A DNA stretch of 34,421 nt from a virus. Shown here in pieces: positions 2,632 to 32,823 of the stretch. The notes below the pieces were generated by a model. The model was not told the origin of the DNA and searched no databases. It saw nothing but the letters and a program-made list of their open reading frames with translations. The stretch covers positions 1-34,421 of IMG/VR virus record IMGVR_UViG_3300009285_006595. One strand, written 5' to 3'. Positions within the stretch are counted from its first letter, which is position 1, and the number at the start of each line of letters is the position of its first letter. A program made the position numbers and the translations under genes.

Positions 2632-4727
2632 TGGTTTTACTATGGGACGTAGAAGAAGTAGCTGGCGGTAGCACTGCAACTACAGTGAACCCGCAGGTGG
2701 GTTCCGCTCATCCCACCGACCCTCAAATGGGCAGTTATCCTGTGGCCACGGTTGAATCATTACCCCCAGCGCCAGCTTCCACCGGACTGGAGCGAGTTCT
2801 ACCTCGCCAAGTCAGCACTGGCAGTCTACGCGGGCAACTTAGTATTGGTGGTTCGGCTATGCAGATTGATTCAACTGGGTCAACCATTCGCGCTGGACAG
2901 ACCGACTATGATGCCGGCACTGGTTTTTGGATGGGCATTGATAGCGGCACACCTAAGTTCTCAATAGGCAATTCTTCGGGTAATAAACTAACTTGGAATG
3001 GTACGACATTATCTATTACCGGTTCACTAACGGCTACTACGGGCGCAATAGGCGGTTGGACGATAGGCACTACAGCCCTAACTTCTGGTTCGGGGGCTAA
3101 TAGCGTTGGCTTGGATTCTGCTGGCACGAATCCGGCTCTTTATGCTGGTTCCGCCACACCAGCTTCGGCGCCCTTCAGAGTAACTCAGGCCGGTGCCCTA
3201 ACCGCCTCTAACGCTACAATTACTGGTTCTATTACTTCTACATCTGGGACAATCGGCGGTTGGACTATCGGTGCAACTACTATTACAGGAGGGAGTGCAA
3301 CACTAGATTCAACAGGAGTAGTTACTATCGGGACTACTAATGATGTCATTATCGCCTCTGCTGTTGATGCTACTTATCGTCTTTGGGTTGGCAATGCGGT
3401 GGCAGCCTCTGCCCCATTTTCTGTCACTAAGGCCGGAGCTGTTGCGGCATCAAATATTACGATAACAGGTGGGGCCGTCTCTGGCGTCCCTATAAGTGGA
3501 ATACCAAATTCAACTGTCACCGACATATCGCTCTTAGAGTGTTCTCATGATCTCGTGTTTTCGGTGACAGATGCAGATACAGTGGCATGGGCATTAGGTA
3601 CGATTATTTTCTCAAATGGGAGAACATTCTCAATTTCTGCGGGTAATACAGGGGATATGGTGGCACTTACTTATATTTATCTTGATCCAGCAGTTTCTTC
3701 TACCGTCCTTCAAGCGACTACAACTTATTCTACTGCGATGGGGGCAAATAAGAGATTAATTGGTACCGCACAAAATCATACGGTGACTGCTTCGTTTATC
3801 CCATACGGTGCCGGAGTTCCCCTTATAGATGGAGCAAATATTGGGGCGTTGTCTATTACTGCAGGAAATATAGCAGCAGCAGCAATCACTGCAGGCAAGA
3901 TAAGCGTTTCTACCCTTTCTTCTATAGTCGCAGATATAGGGACAATCACAGCCGGTAGTATTTCTGTCGTTAATGGACTTAATACAATCGGGTTTACGCC
4001 CAGTGGGGCAAATGCTATTTTTTCGGGGACAACAGGGTCTCCTGAATTTAAGGTCACTCCAGCAGGTGCTTTGACAGCAACTTCAGCCACCATCACGGGT
4101 AGTATCACTTCAACCTCTGGCACAATTGGTGGATTCACTATTGGCGCGGATTATTTGAGAGATACCGCTGATTCTATGGGACTAGCCTCCACCGCTACTG
4201 CTAGTGATGATGTCCGTTTTTGGGCTGGTGATAGTTTTACTAATCGAGCCTCAGCAGCCTTCAGAGTAACTGAGAGCGGGGCGGTGACGGTTACAAGCGG
4301 TTCAGTTCAAGGTTCATTAGTCACTTCAGGGTCCATCACCGGCGATAAGATTGCTGCCGAAACCATCACCGCTAGTAATATTGATGCACTTAATCTATCA
4401 GGTAAGACCTTAACAGCAGACACCGGTACTATCGGGGGTTGGACATTAAGCAGCAATCAGATAGTCGGGCCATCGGGAGCAGTTATCCGCTCCGGTCAGA
4501 CCGACTTTTCCGTTGGTACTGGATTTTGGCTGGGGAATGTCGAGGGCACACCTAAATTCTCTATCGGGTCAGCTTCAGGAAACAAGATGGAGTGGGATGG
4601 AACTTATCTTAGAGTGACTGGAGCCTTTACGCCCGCCTCAGTTTATAAAGCTTATACTTATGTAGTGGCAGACCTTCCGATTCCACCGACTACAGCCGGT
4701 TTTAACAGCCCAGCGGGGGTAGCCTAA
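2631..4727 (+). CDS. Repetitive tail fibre or tail-associated protein
   Basis: 698 residues, low complexity, dominated by Thr, Ser, Gly and Ala. A recurring module is visible: TSGTIGGWTIG or close variants at about residues 140, 205, 500 and 600, each preceded by ATITGSITS-like strands and followed by an APFRVTQAGAL-type strand. Such repeats form beta-helical or triple-stranded shafts in phage fibres. Two segments (near 90-130 and 620-660) are near copies (RAGQTDYDAGTGFWMG and RSGQTDFSVGTGFWLG), suggesting internal duplication. Both ends overlap neighbouring genes by one base, giving tight translational coupling. Probably a fibre or baseplate decoration; the receptor is unknown. Confidence 0.65.
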   Translation: MVLLWDVEEVAGGSTATTVNPQVGSAHPTDPQMGSYPVATVESLPPAPASTGLERVLPRQVSTGSLRGQLSIGGSAMQIDSTGSTIRAGQTDYDAGTGFWMGIDSGTPKFSIGNSSGNKLTWNGTTLSITGSLTATTGAIGGWTIGTTALTSGSGANSVGLDSAGTNPALYAGSATPASAPFRVTQAGALTASNATITGSITSTSGTIGGWTIGATTITGGSATLDSTGVVTIGTTNDVIIASAVDATYRLWVGNAVAASAPFSVTKAGAVAASNITITGGAVSGVPISGIPNSTVTDISLLECSHDLVFSVTDADTVAWALGTIIFSNGRTFSISAGNTGDMVALTYIYLDPAVSSTVLQATTTYSTAMGANKRLIGTAQNHTVTASFIPYGAGVPLIDGANIGALSITAGNIAAAAITAGKISVSTLSSIVADIGTITAGSISVVNGLNTIGFTPSGANAIFSGTTGSPEFKVTPAGALTATSATITGSITSTSGTIGGFTIGADYLRDTADSMGLASTATASDDVRFWAGDSFTNRASAAFRVTESGAVTVTSGSVQGSLVTSGSITGDKIAAETITASNIDALNLSGKTLTADTGTIGGWTLSSNQIVGPSGAVIRSGQTDFSVGTGFWLGNVEGTPKFSIGSASGNKMEWDGTYLRVTGAFTPASVYKAYTYVVADLPIPPTTAGFNSPAGVA

Positions 4728-14482: not shown

Positions 14483-14713
14483 TCACTCATTCAACAGTTT
14501 AATTCGTTCATCGGATTCCATCTCTCGAAGTTCATCCATGGTCATAGGTTCAGCAAAACCAACTGACGGTGGTTTAGCTTCAGCCTGAGCCTTCTTCAGA
14601 GCCTCTAGGCGATGAATTATACCTTGCAGGCTATTTCTAACCTCTCGTAGGTAAAACCCCGCCCAGAAGGCCAGGGGAACGGCTACGGCTAGGGCTAATA
14701 TCAGCTCAGTCAT
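14483..14713 (-). CDS. Small single-pass membrane protein in the chaperonin operon
   Basis: 76 residues. One N-terminal membrane helix (LILALAVAVPLAFWAGFYL) followed by a charged cytoplasmic helix (REVRNSLQGIIHRLEALKKAQAEA) and an acidic tail (MTMDELREMESDERIKLL). It overlaps the groEL end by eight bases, so it is co-transcribed and coupled with groEL. The family is unrecognised. It might tether something to the membrane, but no link to chaperonin function can be shown from sequence. Confidence 0.6.
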   Translation of the reverse strand: MTELILALAVAVPLAFWAGFYLREVRNSLQGIIHRLEALKKAQAEAKPPSVGFAEPMTMDELREMESDERIKLLNE

Positions 14714-16292
14714 CTTCTTTATCTATAAAAATATTTAAACAATCAATCGTAACCACATTAGCGGCCATCGAGGCTGAGTTTTCTACAACTTGTTCGATGA
14801 CTAAATAAGGATCTAGGATACCTTCGGCTACTAAATCAACTAATTCGTCAGCCTTTTTAAGATTAAAACCATAGCCATAGGGCGCTTCCAGCACTTGACT
14901 AAGCTTAACGTCAGCCGGTAGGTTGGCATTATCCATTAACTTTTTAAAGACATTCTGCAAAGACAAAGCAAAAATTTGACCGATACTCTTAGTCTTAGAT
15001 AGCTCCAGTAAGACTACGCCCCCGCCAGGTACTACACCAGTAGCCGCAGCGGCACGAGCAGCTTGAATTGAATCCTCAATCCTAAACTCTTTTTCCTCAC
15101 GCTCAGTATCGGTTGCTCCACCAATTCTGAAAACTGCTATCCGGCCTTCCAGTTTGGCTAACCTATCCCTTAGTTTCTCTATAATGGCATCAACAGTTTC
15201 ATTATCTATCCGGTCTTTTATTTCAGCTTTGCGTCGCTCCAAATCTTCCTTAGAACCCTGGCCGCCAAAAACAGTCGTTTCATTAGCTGTACAGGTTACC
15301 TTCTCGGCTCGACCAAAATAAGAAGCATCAATATCAGCCAGGTTGCTGCCGGCGGCAATTAATTTACCACCGCTATAGATAGCCAAATCTTCCAAATATT
15401 TAACACCCATATCGCCCATTGGTGGTGTCTTGGTGACCGTGCCATCGAAGATACCCTTTTGGATGTTGGCTACGATAGTGTTGTAGGCATCAGCGTCAAA
15501 CTCACCGAAAAAAGCAATCCGCAGCGGTTCACGCAGCGGTGAGTTGAAGTCTAGGCCCTGTTCTTCATGGGCTAGTTCACCAAGCTTATTAAGTAAAATC
15601 AAAATATCTGAGCTAGAATTAATTAAGCGTGAACTAACTACTACATAAGGGCTTGACAGCTCTTTCTTACCCTGGCTGATAGCTGTGAAGCCCTGTTGCA
15701 AGAAGTAACCTTTAATATAAGTCCGATCAACGCCGTCAATCGGAGCTTTCTCGGTTATCAGACCACCGTCCGGTCCAACCGTTTCGATAGCCTCGGCGAT
15801 TAACTTACCCAGTAAAGGGTCGCCGCTAGAAACACCGGCTACCTGCTCTAATTGACCTTTTTTGACCGGTTTGGTCAGCGATTTAAGATTATCTAAAACT
15901 TTGTGGCTGTCATCTAAAATTTGCTGTTTAATATCCATCGGGTTGAAACCGGCGGCGATTTGCTGTAAGCCGAGTTGGATTAAATTGTGGGCTAGTATAA
16001 CAGTGGCAGTTGTGCCATCTCCCGCCACTTTGTTAGTAGCTTGAGAAGCCTCAATCAAAAAGGCGGCACCAATATTCTCAGCACGGTCCTCTATATAGCT
16101 TTCACGGGCGACAGTCACGCCATCACGAGTAATTACTGGACGGCCATAGGTCTTTTCTAGGGCTACATTACGGCCTTTAGGACCAAAAGTTATAGAAACA
16201 GCCTTATAAACTATCTCGGAACCTCTGAGCAAAGCCTGGCGAGCGTCAGCTCCAAAAATAAACAGCTTGCCATCTTTTTTTTCTTGAGCCAT
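14706..16292 (-). CDS. groEL: Phage-encoded GroEL (group I chaperonin)
   Basis: 528 residues, full length for group I chaperonins (E. coli 548). ATP-site residues are kept: FGPKGRN (36-42), RDGVTVA with Asp58 (E. coli Asp52), GDGTTAT with Asp92 (E. coli Asp87), RIED with Asp407 (E. coli Asp398), VVPGGG (420-425) and GILDP (491-495). It differs in the apical domain, where the E. coli GYLSPYF substrate-binding strand is GYFLQQGF, lacks about 11 residues after GGGVVLLEL, and has no GGM tail, ending DKEDD. It lies directly behind groES with no gap and a GAGG Shine-Dalgarno. An ATP-driven folding chamber, perhaps for capsid or other phage proteins, is the likely role. Confidence 0.95.
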   Translation of the reverse strand: MAQEKKDGKLFIFGADARQALLRGSEIVYKAVSITFGPKGRNVALEKTYGRPVITRDGVTVARESYIEDRAENIGAAFLIEASQATNKVAGDGTTATVILAHNLIQLGLQQIAAGFNPMDIKQQILDDSHKVLDNLKSLTKPVKKGQLEQVAGVSSGDPLLGKLIAEAIETVGPDGGLITEKAPIDGVDRTYIKGYFLQQGFTAISQGKKELSSPYVVVSSRLINSSSDILILLNKLGELAHEEQGLDFNSPLREPLRIAFFGEFDADAYNTIVANIQKGIFDGTVTKTPPMGDMGVKYLEDLAIYSGGKLIAAGSNLADIDASYFGRAEKVTCTANETTVFGGQGSKEDLERRKAEIKDRIDNETVDAIIEKLRDRLAKLEGRIAVFRIGGATDTEREEKEFRIEDSIQAARAAAATGVVPGGGVVLLELSKTKSIGQIFALSLQNVFKKLMDNANLPADVKLSQVLEAPYGYGFNLKKADELVDLVAEGILDPYLVIEQVVENSASMAANVVTIDCLNIFIDKEDD

Positions 16293-16634
16293 TTACGCCT
16301 CTACTCCCATTATTGATGATAATTTCACAAATACATATTGCTTGCCGTCATACTCAATATCAGTGCCTGACTCACTACGCTCTGGCCAGTAAACTCGCTC
16401 GCCTACTAAAGATTTATATTTATCATGGACCTGCCTGAGTAAATCTTCATCCATCAAGCTCTTGTCAAAAGCATAAGTGTTCATCCCGTAGTAAGTCATA
16501 AAATCCGATATAGCCACTACTTTACCGCTCCTGATGCCCTCACTAATTATCTTGCCGCCGGCAAATCCATAAGGGTTCTTTTCGATTTCAACCATAAAAA
16601 AGTCATTTAAAGGTTTGAGCTTTGATTCAGCCAT
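16293..16634 (-). CDS. groES: Phage-encoded GroES-like co-chaperonin
   Basis: 113 residues from ATG 16634. It opens with LKPLNDFFMVEIEKNPYG, like the first GroES strand, then a mobile-loop region with GGKII (a possible IVL-type GroEL anchor) and SGKVVAI (as in GEVLAVG), and ends GERVYWPERSESGTDIEYDGKQYVFVKLSSIMGV, the closing GroES strands. About 25-30 extra residues (DFMTYYGMNTYAFDKSLMDE and following) are inserted in the middle compared with E. coli GroES, as in other divergent phage co-chaperonins. The start is set by a promoter whose -10 lies downstream of an alternative TTG at 16667. It would cap the adjacent GroEL. Confidence 0.85.
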   Translation of the reverse strand: MAESKLKPLNDFFMVEIEKNPYGFAGGKIISEGIRSGKVVAISDFMTYYGMNTYAFDKSLMDEDLLRQVHDKYKSLVGERVYWPERSESGTDIEYDGKQYVFVKLSSIMGVEA

Positions 16635-16658
16635 AAATCGTTGTAATTCCTGGTTCTC

Positions 16659-16687
16659 ATTGTCCAAAACACTACCAAATATGTCAA
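16659..16687 (-). promoter_or_regulatory. Promoter of the groES-groEL operon
   Basis: On the minus strand TTGACA (plus 16687-16682), a 17-base spacer and GACAAT (16664-16659) form a good sigma-70-type promoter. Transcription would begin near 16652, leaving a short leader with AGGAA before the groES ATG at 16634. This placement decides the groES start. Confidence 0.6.
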
Positions 16688-29071: not shown

Positions 29072-29758
29072 ATGGCAAAGTTAGATTGGGAAAGGGAGAT
29101 AGAGGCCTTAGTGGCTAAAAATATAACCCGTGAAACTCACGGTGGAGCTGTTAATCGTGTCCGCTACACTTTGACCCAACAACTCCAACAACTTATAGAT
29201 AAAGCTAGATTGAGTGGGGCGTATAGTGCTGAAGTTTGGCGAGAAGTAGGCGATGGCTGGGGGCTTTTTTATCAGGTCAGTAGTGCTGGCCGAGTACGGT
29301 CTGTAGCTAGAGGCAGGAACACAGGCCGAATACTTAAGCCAGCCTTGATTGGTCGAGGTTACCCCAGAGTAAGTCTCTTTAGTTCTACCGATGGTAAGAA
29401 AGATATGTTGGTGCATAGATTAGTCGCCCAAGCGTTTATCCCTAATCCCGACAATCTACCCTGTATTAACCACAAAGACGGCAACAAGCTAAACAACTGC
29501 GTTAACAACCTAGAATGGTGTACCCACGCCTACAACAACATACACGCCGTCGAGAATGGCTTGAGCAATATCACGGGTGCAAACAGCTCTAGTGCTAGAT
29601 TCACCCATGAAGACGTAGAGATTGTGCGAGCGTTAAAGGGTAAGGAAACAGGCAGGTCAGTTGCTAAAAGATATGGCGTTGACCCATCAACTGTCTATAA
29701 CGTATGGAAAGGCTTTACTTATAAGCCAGTAGACCAACTTAATGCTAAAGAAGGATAG
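29072..29758 (+). CDS. HNH homing endonuclease with NUMOD4 and HTH
   Basis: 228 residues. Residues 53-100 match a NUMOD4 module (EVWREVGDGWGLFYQVSSAG); 112-160 an HNH domain (LVHRLVAQAF, INHKDGNKLNNCVNNLEWCTH with His and Asn catalytic positions); 175-215 an HTH (VEIVRALKGKETGRSVAKRYGVDPSTVYNVWKG). The first 50 residues (LDWEREIEALVAKNITRE) look unrelated and may be the remains of the gene it fused into. Homing enzymes of this type cut intronless/HNH-less alleles. A loose AAGGAG lies before the ATG. It is followed directly by a 51-residue gene. Confidence 0.85.
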   Translation: MAKLDWEREIEALVAKNITRETHGGAVNRVRYTLTQQLQQLIDKARLSGAYSAEVWREVGDGWGLFYQVSSAGRVRSVARGRNTGRILKPALIGRGYPRVSLFSSTDGKKDMLVHRLVAQAFIPNPDNLPCINHKDGNKLNNCVNNLEWCTHAYNNIHAVENGLSNITGANSSSARFTHEDVEIVRALKGKETGRSVAKRYGVDPSTVYNVWKGFTYKPVDQLNAKEG

Positions 29759-30042: not shown

Positions 30043-32535
30043 ATGACTGAAAATGCTCAATTAGAGGCCAGTAATGTTTTGGCCTGGATCACTTTAAACA
30101 GCTTTGTTAATGAGTATAACAAGCCGATTGAGTTCGTTAATCACCGGTTTATGATTGATTATATGGTTGATGACCATCCGACTATTGTGACCAAGAAGGC
30201 GGCTCAGGTGGGCATGACAGTGGCTGAGACCCTGAGGGCCATCCACGAGGCCAGTTTCGGCCATAAGAACGTGATCCACACGCTCCAGACCTCGGATGTC
30301 ATTAAAGGCTTTGTAGCGCCTAAGGTTAATCCGATAATCGAATATAATCCTAAAATTAGAGCTTTGATGAAGGTAGACAGTGAGAGCCTGAAGCAGTTTG
30401 GCGAAAATTTTATTTACTACCGTGGCGCTCAGGCCGAGAGTCAAGCTATTAACATTACGGCCGATGTGTTAAATATTGATGAATATGACCGCTCCAACCA
30501 AAAAGTCGTTGAAGTCTATCGGTCGCGGCTGGACGCCTCGCCAGACCCCAAAATTCGTTATTTTTCTAATCCAAGCGCTATCGGTTTTGGCGTTGATGGC
30601 TTGTATCAGCAGTCTGACCAGCGGCATTGGTTTATTACTTGCCATCGCTGTGGTCATGCTAATTTTATGGATTGGCAGCCTAGCGACGAGTTAAACCACT
30701 ATGTCGATGTCGATAAAGCTATATATGCCTGTGGCAAATGCGGTAAGGAGATTACTGACAAAGACAGGATTAACGGCGAATGGGTGACTAAATATCCAGA
30801 TCGTAAGATTCATGGCTACTGGGTCAGTCAGCTGATGGCACCCTGGGTCAGCGCTCAGCATATTATAGAAAAGCAGATAACTTCCAGCACCGAGTATTTT
30901 CATAATTTTGTGCTGGGCAAGGCTTATACTCCGACTGATTTGATAGTCAATCGGGATACCATCTTACGGGCTTGTAGTCCTAGCTTGATCCCCAAGGTCC
31001 AGGTGGCGATTGGTGTTGATAATGGTGTAGTTAAACACTGGGTGGCTGGTACGCCCCAGGGCGTCTTTGACTATGGCAAGACTGAAAGCTGGGAGGAGAT
31101 CGAGCGATTACTGCTGATGTATAACGCCGTTATGGTGATTGACGCTAACCCTTATCCGAATATCCCTAAACAGCTGGTGGAGAAATATAAAGGTCGGGTT
31201 TTTATTAACTATTACAAACGGGACAGCAAGAACTTAGGGATTGTGCTGTGGCGTGAGGGTAAGGAGTATGGTGTGGTGACAGCTGATCGAACCAAGGTCT
31301 TCGACTTGGTGGCTAATGAGATTGCCGAGAGTCGTCTGTTATTTCGTCAGACGCCGCACCAATTAGAGGGATATATCAGCCATTGGGCTAATATCTATCG
31401 GACGGTTGATACTGATGCTAGGGGCTTAGAGCGGGGCGTCTGGGTGACGCAGGAAGGTCGGCCAGATCATTATTGTTTTGATGGGAGTACATTTATTAAG
31501 ACTTTGCGTGGTGATATTAAGATTAAAAATGTAAGAAAAAGCGATCATGTTCTGACCAGTAAAGGTTATTGTCGGGTTACTAGGGCTTGGTTGACTAAGA
31601 AAAACGCTAAAGTTAAAAAATATAAATTTAGTAATGGCGCGGAAATTATAGCTACGCCTAACCATAGAATAGCTACTGAGAAAGGATTTATCCCATTGCA
31701 CGATATAGTTTATTCCGATAAGATCAAAGTATGGTCAAGACCAAAACAATTATTTTCCAAGGCGTTACATATCGTCGATACCCAAATTCAAAAACTAGAA
31801 GCGAGAGAGTCTATTATATGCCAAACGGAACAGAACGGGCCAAGGGCCGCAAGCGTTATCACCAGGAACTCTGGATTCACTATAACGGTCTTGTCCCAAA
31901 AGGCTTTGTCGTTCACCACGCTGATGACAACTCCCTCAACAACTCATTGGACAATCTCGAACTTATCGAACGAGGAGAACATCAATCAAACCATAGTCTG
32001 CAACATTTCCAAGACCCTAAGTACGTTAAACGCAACAAACGACTATTGGATATTATCCGACCTAAGTCTCATGCTTGGCGTAGGACTGAGCAGGGTAAAA
32101 AATGGCATAGCGAACATGCTAAAAAAACTTGGTATCGTCGGGAGCCACTTTTGCTTAAATGTATTGGGTGTGGTACGGAATTTTTTAGTTACTGGAAACA
32201 CCATACTAAGTGGTGTTCAAGAGCGTGTATCAATCGAATTTATCAGCGAAAACTTAGGGCAAAGAAACGTCTACAATCTAACAGTTGAAGGCAACCACGA
32301 GTACTATGCTAACGGAATCTTAGTCAGTAATTGTCATGCCCAGATTTACCAGCGTATTGCCTTGTCTCGGCAGCTAGGCGCCTCCATGGGTATTGGCTTT
32401 GTAGAGCCGTTGACAAAAGAGAAGCCTAAGGCTGATTATATTAATAGTGAGGGCAAGTTGGTTACCGACTTGTCTGAACAGATAGAAGAAGCCCTGTCGG
32501 GTGATAATATAAGCACTGATTGGCGTTATCAATGA
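30043..32535 (+). CDS. terL: Large terminase (GpA type) interrupted by an intein
   Basis: 830 residues as read, 544 after removing the 286-residue intein. ATPase: Walker A-like KKAAQVGMT (51-59) and Walker B VLNIDEYD (142-149). A four-Cys zinc site (200, 203, 230, 233) typical of lambda GpA-like terminases. Nuclease: Asp326 (GVDNG), Asp367 (VIDAN) and Asp475 in RPDHY. The intein starts at Cys478 and ends before Cys764, so splicing joins DHY to CHAQIYQR and restores the conserved third nuclease motif. Without splicing the nuclease is broken. Start at 30043 has GAG six bases upstream; its end overlaps the next gene (ATGA). It drives DNA packaging with the small subunit. Confidence 0.92.
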   Translation: MTENAQLEASNVLAWITLNSFVNEYNKPIEFVNHRFMIDYMVDDHPTIVTKKAAQVGMTVAETLRAIHEASFGHKNVIHTLQTSDVIKGFVAPKVNPIIEYNPKIRALMKVDSESLKQFGENFIYYRGAQAESQAINITADVLNIDEYDRSNQKVVEVYRSRLDASPDPKIRYFSNPSAIGFGVDGLYQQSDQRHWFITCHRCGHANFMDWQPSDELNHYVDVDKAIYACGKCGKEITDKDRINGEWVTKYPDRKIHGYWVSQLMAPWVSAQHIIEKQITSSTEYFHNFVLGKAYTPTDLIVNRDTILRACSPSLIPKVQVAIGVDNGVVKHWVAGTPQGVFDYGKTESWEEIERLLLMYNAVMVIDANPYPNIPKQLVEKYKGRVFINYYKRDSKNLGIVLWREGKEYGVVTADRTKVFDLVANEIAESRLLFRQTPHQLEGYISHWANIYRTVDTDARGLERGVWVTQEGRPDHYCFDGSTFIKTLRGDIKIKNVRKSDHVLTSKGYCRVTRAWLTKKNAKVKKYKFSNGAEIIATPNHRIATEKGFIPLHDIVYSDKIKVWSRPKQLFSKALHIVDTQIQKLEARESIICQTEQNGPRAASVITRNSGFTITVLSQKALSFTTLMTTPSTTHWTISNLSNEENINQTIVCNISKTLSTLNATNDYWILSDLSLMLGVGLSRVKNGIANMLKKLGIVGSHFCLNVLGVVRNFLVTGNTILSGVQERVSIEFISENLGQRNVYNLTVEGNHEYYANGILVSNCHAQIYQRIALSRQLGASMGIGFVEPLTKEKPKADYINSEGKLVTDLSEQIEEALSGDNISTDWRYQ
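31474..32331 (+). mobile_element. Intein inside terL (Hint halves plus spacer)
   Basis: Encodes 286 residues (478-763 of the product). N-terminal Hint block starts CFDGSTFIKTLRGDIKIKNV with the Cys1 nucleophile; block B TPNHRIA has the usual Thr and His; the C-terminal block is NVYNLTVEGNHEYYANGILV then SN before Cys+1. The penultimate residue is Ser rather than His, seen in some active inteins. About 180 residues between the halves show no endonuclease motif in this frame, but an HNH gene lies there in another frame. Insertion at the catalytic DHY motif is a typical intein site. Confidence 0.9.
31731..32288 (+). CDS. HNH homing endonuclease nested out of frame in the intein
   Basis: 185 residues in a different frame from terL. 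HNH core: LWIHYNGLVPKGFVVHHADD, with His62-His63, then NNSLDNLELIERGEHQSNH with Asn71 and His84. C-terminal zinc ribbon: CIGC (144, 147) and CSRAC (162, 166) followed by a basic tail. The ATG is at the end of the Hint N-half and the stop lies inside the Hint C-block, so it fills exactly the place where an in-frame endonuclease domain sits in large inteins. No strong Shine-Dalgarno is seen; reinitiation or frameshifting may be needed. A homing role for the intein is the natural inference. Confidence 0.85.
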   Translation: MVKTKTIIFQGVTYRRYPNSKTRSERVYYMPNGTERAKGRKRYHQELWIHYNGLVPKGFVVHHADDNSLNNSLDNLELIERGEHQSNHSLQHFQDPKYVKRNKRLLDIIRPKSHAWRRTEQGKKWHSEHAKKTWYRREPLLLKCIGCGTEFFSYWKHHTKWCSRACINRIYQRKLRAKKRLQSNS

Positions 32536-32780: not shown

Positions 32781-32823
32781 AATAATTTTCTAAGGTGTTA
32801 ATTTCGTGGTAAGCTTAGGATAG

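Follow-up and report, generated by a model that had tools for sequence, protein, structure and literature searches.

A phage terminase intein with an HNH endonuclease gene overprinted in its -1 frame, and its relatives

Textbook inteins become mobile through the in-frame fusion of an endonuclease. A viral DNA from IMG/VR (record IMGVR_UViG_3300009285_006595, positions 1 to 34,421; the whole stretch of 34,421 nucleotides is called the window here) raises the question of whether an intein may carry a complete homing endonuclease gene in a frame other than its own and, if so, how such an arrangement is read, maintained, and spread.

The terL intein and the HNH gene within it

The terL gene of the window and the elements nested in it are listed below.

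30043..32535 (+): terL, a single open frame of 830 aa, intein included
30043..31473 (+): N-extein, comprising the TerL ATPase and the greater part of the nuclease domain, with EGRPDHY at its end
31474..32331 (+): intein, 286 aa, Cys1 to Asn286 (TerL residues 478 to 763), followed by Cys+1
31474..31728 (+): Hint N segment, with Cys1 and T61xxH64
31719..31721 (+): TAA in the HNH frame, a stop just ahead of the HNH start
31731..32288 (+): ORF of the putative HNH homing endonuclease, 185 aa, shifted by -1 relative to the intein frame; ATG at 31731, TGA at 32286-32288
31744..32217 (+): intein-frame linker, residues 91 to 248, an open frame over the same bases as the HNH gene
31914..31994 (+): HNH motif region (H62-H63 ... 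N71/N75 ... H84/H88)
32160..32228 (+): zinc ribbon of the HNH protein (C144-C147-C162-C166)
32218..32331 (+): Hint C segment, residues 249 to 286, ending in VSN (TIGR01443)
32218..32288 (+): doubly constrained stretch, encoding the HNH C terminus (zinc ligand C166) and a Hint C strand in two frames
32332..32535 (+): C-extein (C+1 HAQIYQRIALSRQL...) and TerL stop

The terL product matches GpA_ATPase (PF05876; E 4.6e-24) and phrog_675 (E 2.6e-86), and its joined exteins align across the junction with the intein-less TerL of Bacillus phage BSP38. The insertion bears the marks of a class 1 intein (N-terminal Cys, the TxxH of block B, C-terminal Asn, and Cys+1), and Pfam Intein_splicing, TIGR01445 (N-terminal), and TIGR01443 (C-terminal) all score over their cutoffs, with the Intein_splicing match skipping the middle. 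In the AlphaFold model of the intein, pLDDT is 94 to 98 for residues 1 to 80, 89 for residues 81 to 90, and about 97 for residues 261 to 286, and Foldseek matches the model to the gp41-1 intein (6qaz; E 1.7e-7, TMt 0.83) and to other mini-inteins, which are the nearest solved fold and have no endonuclease gene inside. The clear Hint ends described in an earlier note on this DNA are thus upheld by three splicing models and by the structural comparisons. Linker residues 91 to 248 have pLDDT values mostly of 44 to 55, with one helix reaching 74, suggesting that this part of the chain is mostly unstructured.

Across 66 aligned inteins of the family described below, C1, H64, and N286 do not vary. 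The +1 residue is Cys, Ser, or Thr in 153/153 family inteins with clean borders, a count to be read with the fact that the border search itself demanded N followed by C, S, or T. The penultimate residue is Ser in the window and, in the family, His in 79/153 and Ser in 54/153 members; Ser in place of His can slow splicing. Because the window intein is one continuous ORF with IntN and IntC on the same chain, it does not qualify as a split intein. An RNA intron was also considered, and no Rfam match was found anywhere in the window.

The ORF in the middle of the intein matches PF13392 (HNH_3; E 8e-12) and phrog_15471 (E 2e-20), and its AlphaFold model has a mean pLDDT of 95.5; in a Foldseek search of the PDB, the only match was a weak one, to I-HmuI (E 0.11). 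H62, H63, N71, N75, and H84 as well as the zinc cysteines C144, C147, C162, and C166 are unchanged in 68/68 aligned HNH members. A complete HNH protein with a zinc ribbon is therefore encoded out of frame, as had been noted from the sequence. The ATG lies just after the Hint N segment and 9 nt past an in-frame TAA. That the gene also ends at the Hint border, as the earlier note had it, is slightly off, since the last ~24 HNH codons, including that of the last zinc cysteine (32226-32228), overlap the Hint C segment by about 71 nt.

Elsewhere in the window, a second, unrelated NUMOD4/HNH_3 endonuclease-like ORF lies upstream of TerL (29072-29758, plus strand), and ORFs resembling phage-encoded GroEL and GroES were recognized by eye (14706-16292 and 16293-16667, both on the minus strand).

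Conservation of the phase among nested inteins

The window is a metagenome-derived virus contig, and sequencing or assembly indels at both borders of an ordinary in-frame HNH could in principle have displaced it from the intein frame. Nevertheless, two contigs of other metagenomic origin (L009 and L010) align to the window TerL without gaps and have an identical intein. In both of these contigs, about 650 bp that are absent from the window (at 32781-32793) separate TerL from the portal gene; the extra segment of L009 contains a 198-aa HNH-like ORF (L009:2636-3232).

Homology searches that relied on HNH protein similarity, and that were blind to frame, yielded 159 distinct inteins of this nested kind from phages and prophages, namely, that of the window and at least 158 others. 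Set 1 comprises 73 distinct loci in which both Hint halves lie in one open frame around the HNH gene, and set 2 comprises 85 new distinct inteins obtained out of sample by two further searches seeded from other clades. The phase is identical in all 73 members of set 1 and in all 85 of set 2. The 159th intein (L102), whose C block scores below the cutoff and which was assigned by eye, has the same phase and no stop. No in-frame HNH of this family within a contiguous intein was found in either sample. One locus (L097) was scored as "phase 0" by the script; there, a stop separates IntN from the HNH gene. The same phase occurs in relatives from Tetrasphaera phage TJE1, Acinetobacter phage Highwayman, Rhodobacteraceae phage LS06-2018-MD07, and a fecal phage contig. 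The usual definition of an endonuclease intein, by which the endonuclease shares the frame and the chain of the Hint domain, applied to none of the 158 classified nested inteins, including that of the window.

Random indels would be expected to produce mixed phases, and the sequenced genomes of TJE1 and Highwayman, like all 158 classified nested inteins, share a single one. The artifact reading is thus refuted by phase conservation, and we assign it a vanishingly small probability. Both observations that the earlier note had named as fatal to its proposal, namely, indels restoring the frame and homologs with an in-frame HNH, are absent: the independent contigs are identical without gaps, relatives occur in sequenced phage genomes, and 0/158 automatically classified nested inteins have the HNH in frame. 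The frame relation that was to be sought in related terminase inteins is shared by 158/158.

Stop avoidance and selection on the two frames

In set 1, the intein frame contains no stops in 13,919 codons, compared with 151 expected from within-gene synonymous shuffling, 296 expected from host codon usage, and 1226 present in the other shifted frame; in set 2, there are no stops in the intein frame versus 1582 in the other shifted frame, with the provision for both sets that membership demands one open frame around the HNH gene, so that the zero arises partly by construction. Independent support comes from the observation that nearly all Hint-flanked HNH genes found belong to the nested class, share one phase, and show a stop-avoiding codon choice. 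Freestanding and split relatives have 1 to 12 stops in the corresponding frame, and the 15 such controls tested by shuffling are near the expected stop count. In the nested genes, a Leu, Val, or Ile codon that precedes an A-starting codon ends in C or T in 366/366 cases and never in A or G, and Met precedes an A-starting codon in 0/109 cases, versus 15/32 in the controls.

The structure of the code offers a possible explanation for the phase itself. A stop in the nested phase needs an HNH codon NTA before A or G, or NTG before A, and hence a T at the second HNH position, so that Leu, Ile, Val, and Met codons are the main ones concerned. A T-ending codon before AA, AG, or GA always creates a stop in the other shifted phase, where 15.7 stops per gene are expected versus 4.1 in the nested phase, a difference of about fourfold. 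The observed phase is thus predictable, because synonymous choice mostly avoids its stops. The stop codons of the HNH genes overlap the intein dipeptides YN (41/158), VE (19/158), YD (11/158), and AD (11/158), suggesting that the codons of conserved Hint residues, with Y-N and Y-D among the commonest, often furnish the HNH stop.

Comparison of related pairs indicates which product is constrained. At HNH codon positions 1, 2, and 3, L029 and L036, for example, differ at 3, 10, and 35 sites, and L005 and L094 differ at 45, 42, and 104 sites. The most variable position in the compared pairs, HNH position 3, is position 2 of the intein frame. This concentration of substitutions implies that the HNH protein is conserved and that the linker in the intein frame is free to change and only kept open. 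The AlphaFold models agree, with high confidence for the Hint ends and the HNH protein and low confidence for the linker.

For the window alone, the statistics are modest. When the HNH protein sequence and the codon composition of its gene are held fixed, the probability of an open intein frame is 0.15; under host codon usage, 6.6 stops are expected, and 0/400 resamples were open. A chance near 10^-4, as estimated in the earlier note, is thus too strong for this one sequence. On its own codons, the window by itself might even be compatible with an HNH gene that is dead cargo in an intein frame that is open by accident. At the family level, we reject this explanation as extremely improbable, for the catalytic residues and zinc cysteines do not vary among 68 members, the third-position bias indicates purifying selection, and no stops occur across 158 members. 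Selection for keeping both frames open, which the earlier note had considered likely, is strongly supported by the sequences (in set 1, none of 13,919 codons is a stop, where 151 stops were expected, and a further 85 out-of-sample inteins have none).

Expression of the HNH gene

A start codon (ATG, GTG, or TTG) is available for the HNH gene in 157/158 members, and in 87% of the family a stop in the HNH frame lies either downstream of the Hint N end or no farther than 60 nt upstream of it, which together favor internal initiation over frameshifting. Shine-Dalgarno-like 4-mers precede 24/73 HNH starts (33%), a modest enrichment over same-phase internal start codons (17.5%); no Shine-Dalgarno-like sequence was found at the HNH start of the window. 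The HNH lies in the -1 frame of the intein, and the commonest programmed shift in bacteria goes in this direction, so that the protein might be conceived of as a Hint-HNH fusion made by programmed ribosomal frameshifting, with no initiation of its own. We consider this unlikely, given the start codons and upstream stops just described and given that only 9 nt of open HNH frame precede the ATG in the window, a stretch with no X XXY YYZ heptamer.

Insertion site and spread

The N-exteins of the nested inteins match Terminase_6N (42/68), Terminase_3 (27/68), GpA_ATPase (5/68), and TerL_ATPase (2/68). Among the 153 members with clean borders, DH-, NH-, or DD-like residues stand just upstream of the intein in 120 and D-A/S/T/C just downstream in 120, a motif which we take to be the TerL nuclease motif. 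Many related TerLs are without this intein.

A trace of recent movement is found in one pair of relatives. The inteins of L082 and L083 differ at 0/915 positions, compared with 48/831 and 94/1281 in the flanks (about 6 to 7%), and the identical tract (2675-3852) extends beyond the intein (2702-3616) by 27 nt on the left and 236 nt on the right. This gene-conversion-like tract is what homing with coconversion would leave. The window and L010 (0/858 differences in the intein, 17/600 in the left flank) show a less specific pattern that would fit homing and also ordinary recombination. The sequences show that nested inteins have spread horizontally, with a recent homing-like event in a relative of the window.

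The freestanding relatives of this HNH adjoin terminase genes, and HNH proteins are components of packaging machines according to a passage of PMC12613952 that cites Kala et al. 2014, both of which would suit a packaging helper of TerL in place of a homing enzyme. A helper of this kind seems improbable to us, because the intein that harbors the HNH gene occupies a fixed site in TerL proteins of unrelated families, because L082/L083 bear the homing signature, and because many related TerLs have no such HNH-bearing intein.

On the evidence of architecture, phase conservation, stop avoidance, purifying selection on the HNH, and insertion site, we think it very probable that the window carries an intein with an overprinted endonuclease, spliced from the TerL frame and mobilized by a separately made HNH protein. 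The element would be a contiguous class 1 intein in which the slot between the Hint halves that an endonuclease domain usually takes holds a complete HNH gene, overprinted in the -1 frame. Ribosomes translating terL would keep to the Hint frame across the HNH DNA and produce a long disordered linker, after which the two Hint halves would pair and TerL would be spliced. The HNH protein would be made separately, most likely by internal initiation at an ATG or GTG right after the Hint N segment, and we infer that it cuts intein-less terL at the nuclease-motif site, upon which recombination would copy in the whole element. Selection would preserve both the HNH protein sequence and the stop-free Hint frame.

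Freestanding and split relatives and the origin of nesting

HNH genes of the same family also occur in other states. Freestanding relatives are found near terminase genes, and L096-L099, L265, L268, and L270 are split TerL inteins in which IntN ends at a stop that is followed by an HNH gene of this family; L266 was classed as a split TerL intein by the script only. Where the contig continues and the half was detected, IntC starts within or after the HNH gene. The script phases of the split loci vary for IntN and are 1 for each IntC detected.

In the HNH tree, nested, freestanding, and split forms are interleaved, and at least 5 state changes are needed on supported branches (the bootstrap had not settled); the tree would fit one origin of nesting with escapes as well as several invasions. 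Among the origins offered in the earlier note, a frameshifted fusion produced by indels is excluded, leaving an out-of-frame invasion kept as a stable overlapping code. It is quite possible, although we hold this only tentatively, that the overprinted inteins are a large and old class, repeatedly formed by the capture of a freestanding HNH gene targeting the TerL nuclease motif, and that they offer a path toward split inteins once the linker is interrupted by a stop.

Three further arrangements were observed at these loci. In L258, a TerL ORF lacking this intein precedes an HNH gene, after which comes an ORF resembling IntC-TerL-C, perhaps the remnant of an incomplete transfer. Three N-exteins of set 1 match Intein_splicing and one matches LAGLIDADG_3, indicating that some TerL genes carry a second intein. 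An intein-like start is also present in the TerL of L019.

Relation to known systems

In canonical endonuclease inteins, such as PI-SceI and, in our collection, an in-frame HNH within an intein-like insertion of an RtcB-like protein (L114), the Hint domain is likewise interrupted at the endonuclease slot and the element homes, but the endonuclease shares the frame and the chain of the intein, whereas that of the window is out of frame and probably a separate protein. In the "fractured genes" reportedly described by Dassa et al. in 2009, a freestanding endonuclease lies between the halves of a split intein; there, as here, an endonuclease gene with a start and a stop of its own separates IntN from IntC, but the window intein is one continuous chain, whose frame also runs through the HNH DNA.

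The closest published case is the ShiLan element, an out-of-frame HNH hidden in an insertion of a phage DNA methylase whose host frame remains open; it is mobile, has no detectable ribosome-binding site, and is thought not to splice (PMC11855218). Another methylase with such a hidden HNH has been reported (PMC12613952). ShiLan and the window share an HNH gene that is out of frame inside an insertion open in the frame of the host gene, and neither has a detectable ribosome-binding site at the HNH. However, ShiLan has no Hint domain, whereas the HNH gene of the window is surrounded by a full intein, its overlap reaches conserved Hint sequence, and its class is large, phase-locked, and located in TerL. 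TerL is a frequent intein host; the inteins reported from mycobacteriophage TerLs lie in the ATPase domain (PMC5050341), in contrast to the nuclease motif occupied by the nested inteins. In line with the earlier note, which knew of no well-described intein of this kind, our literature searches for a published intein with an out-of-frame endonuclease returned only ShiLan-type cases; a preprint on noncanonical actinobacteriophage inteins (10.1101/2025.01.02.630785) may describe related cases.

The nested inteins thus form a widespread class in which a splicing domain and an endonuclease would be obtained as separate proteins from the same bases, with no compatible fusion needed. Overprinting makes the endonuclease of an intein invisible to the annotation of the host gene, as in TJE1 and Highwayman, where terL is the only annotation at the intein locus. 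The class is a clean and recurrent case of gene overlap in which the constraint on both frames can be measured. It also ties together, through one HNH family, endonucleases that are freestanding, nested in inteins, or placed between the halves of split inteins, and it offers a direct test of how homing, splicing, and internal translation coexist.
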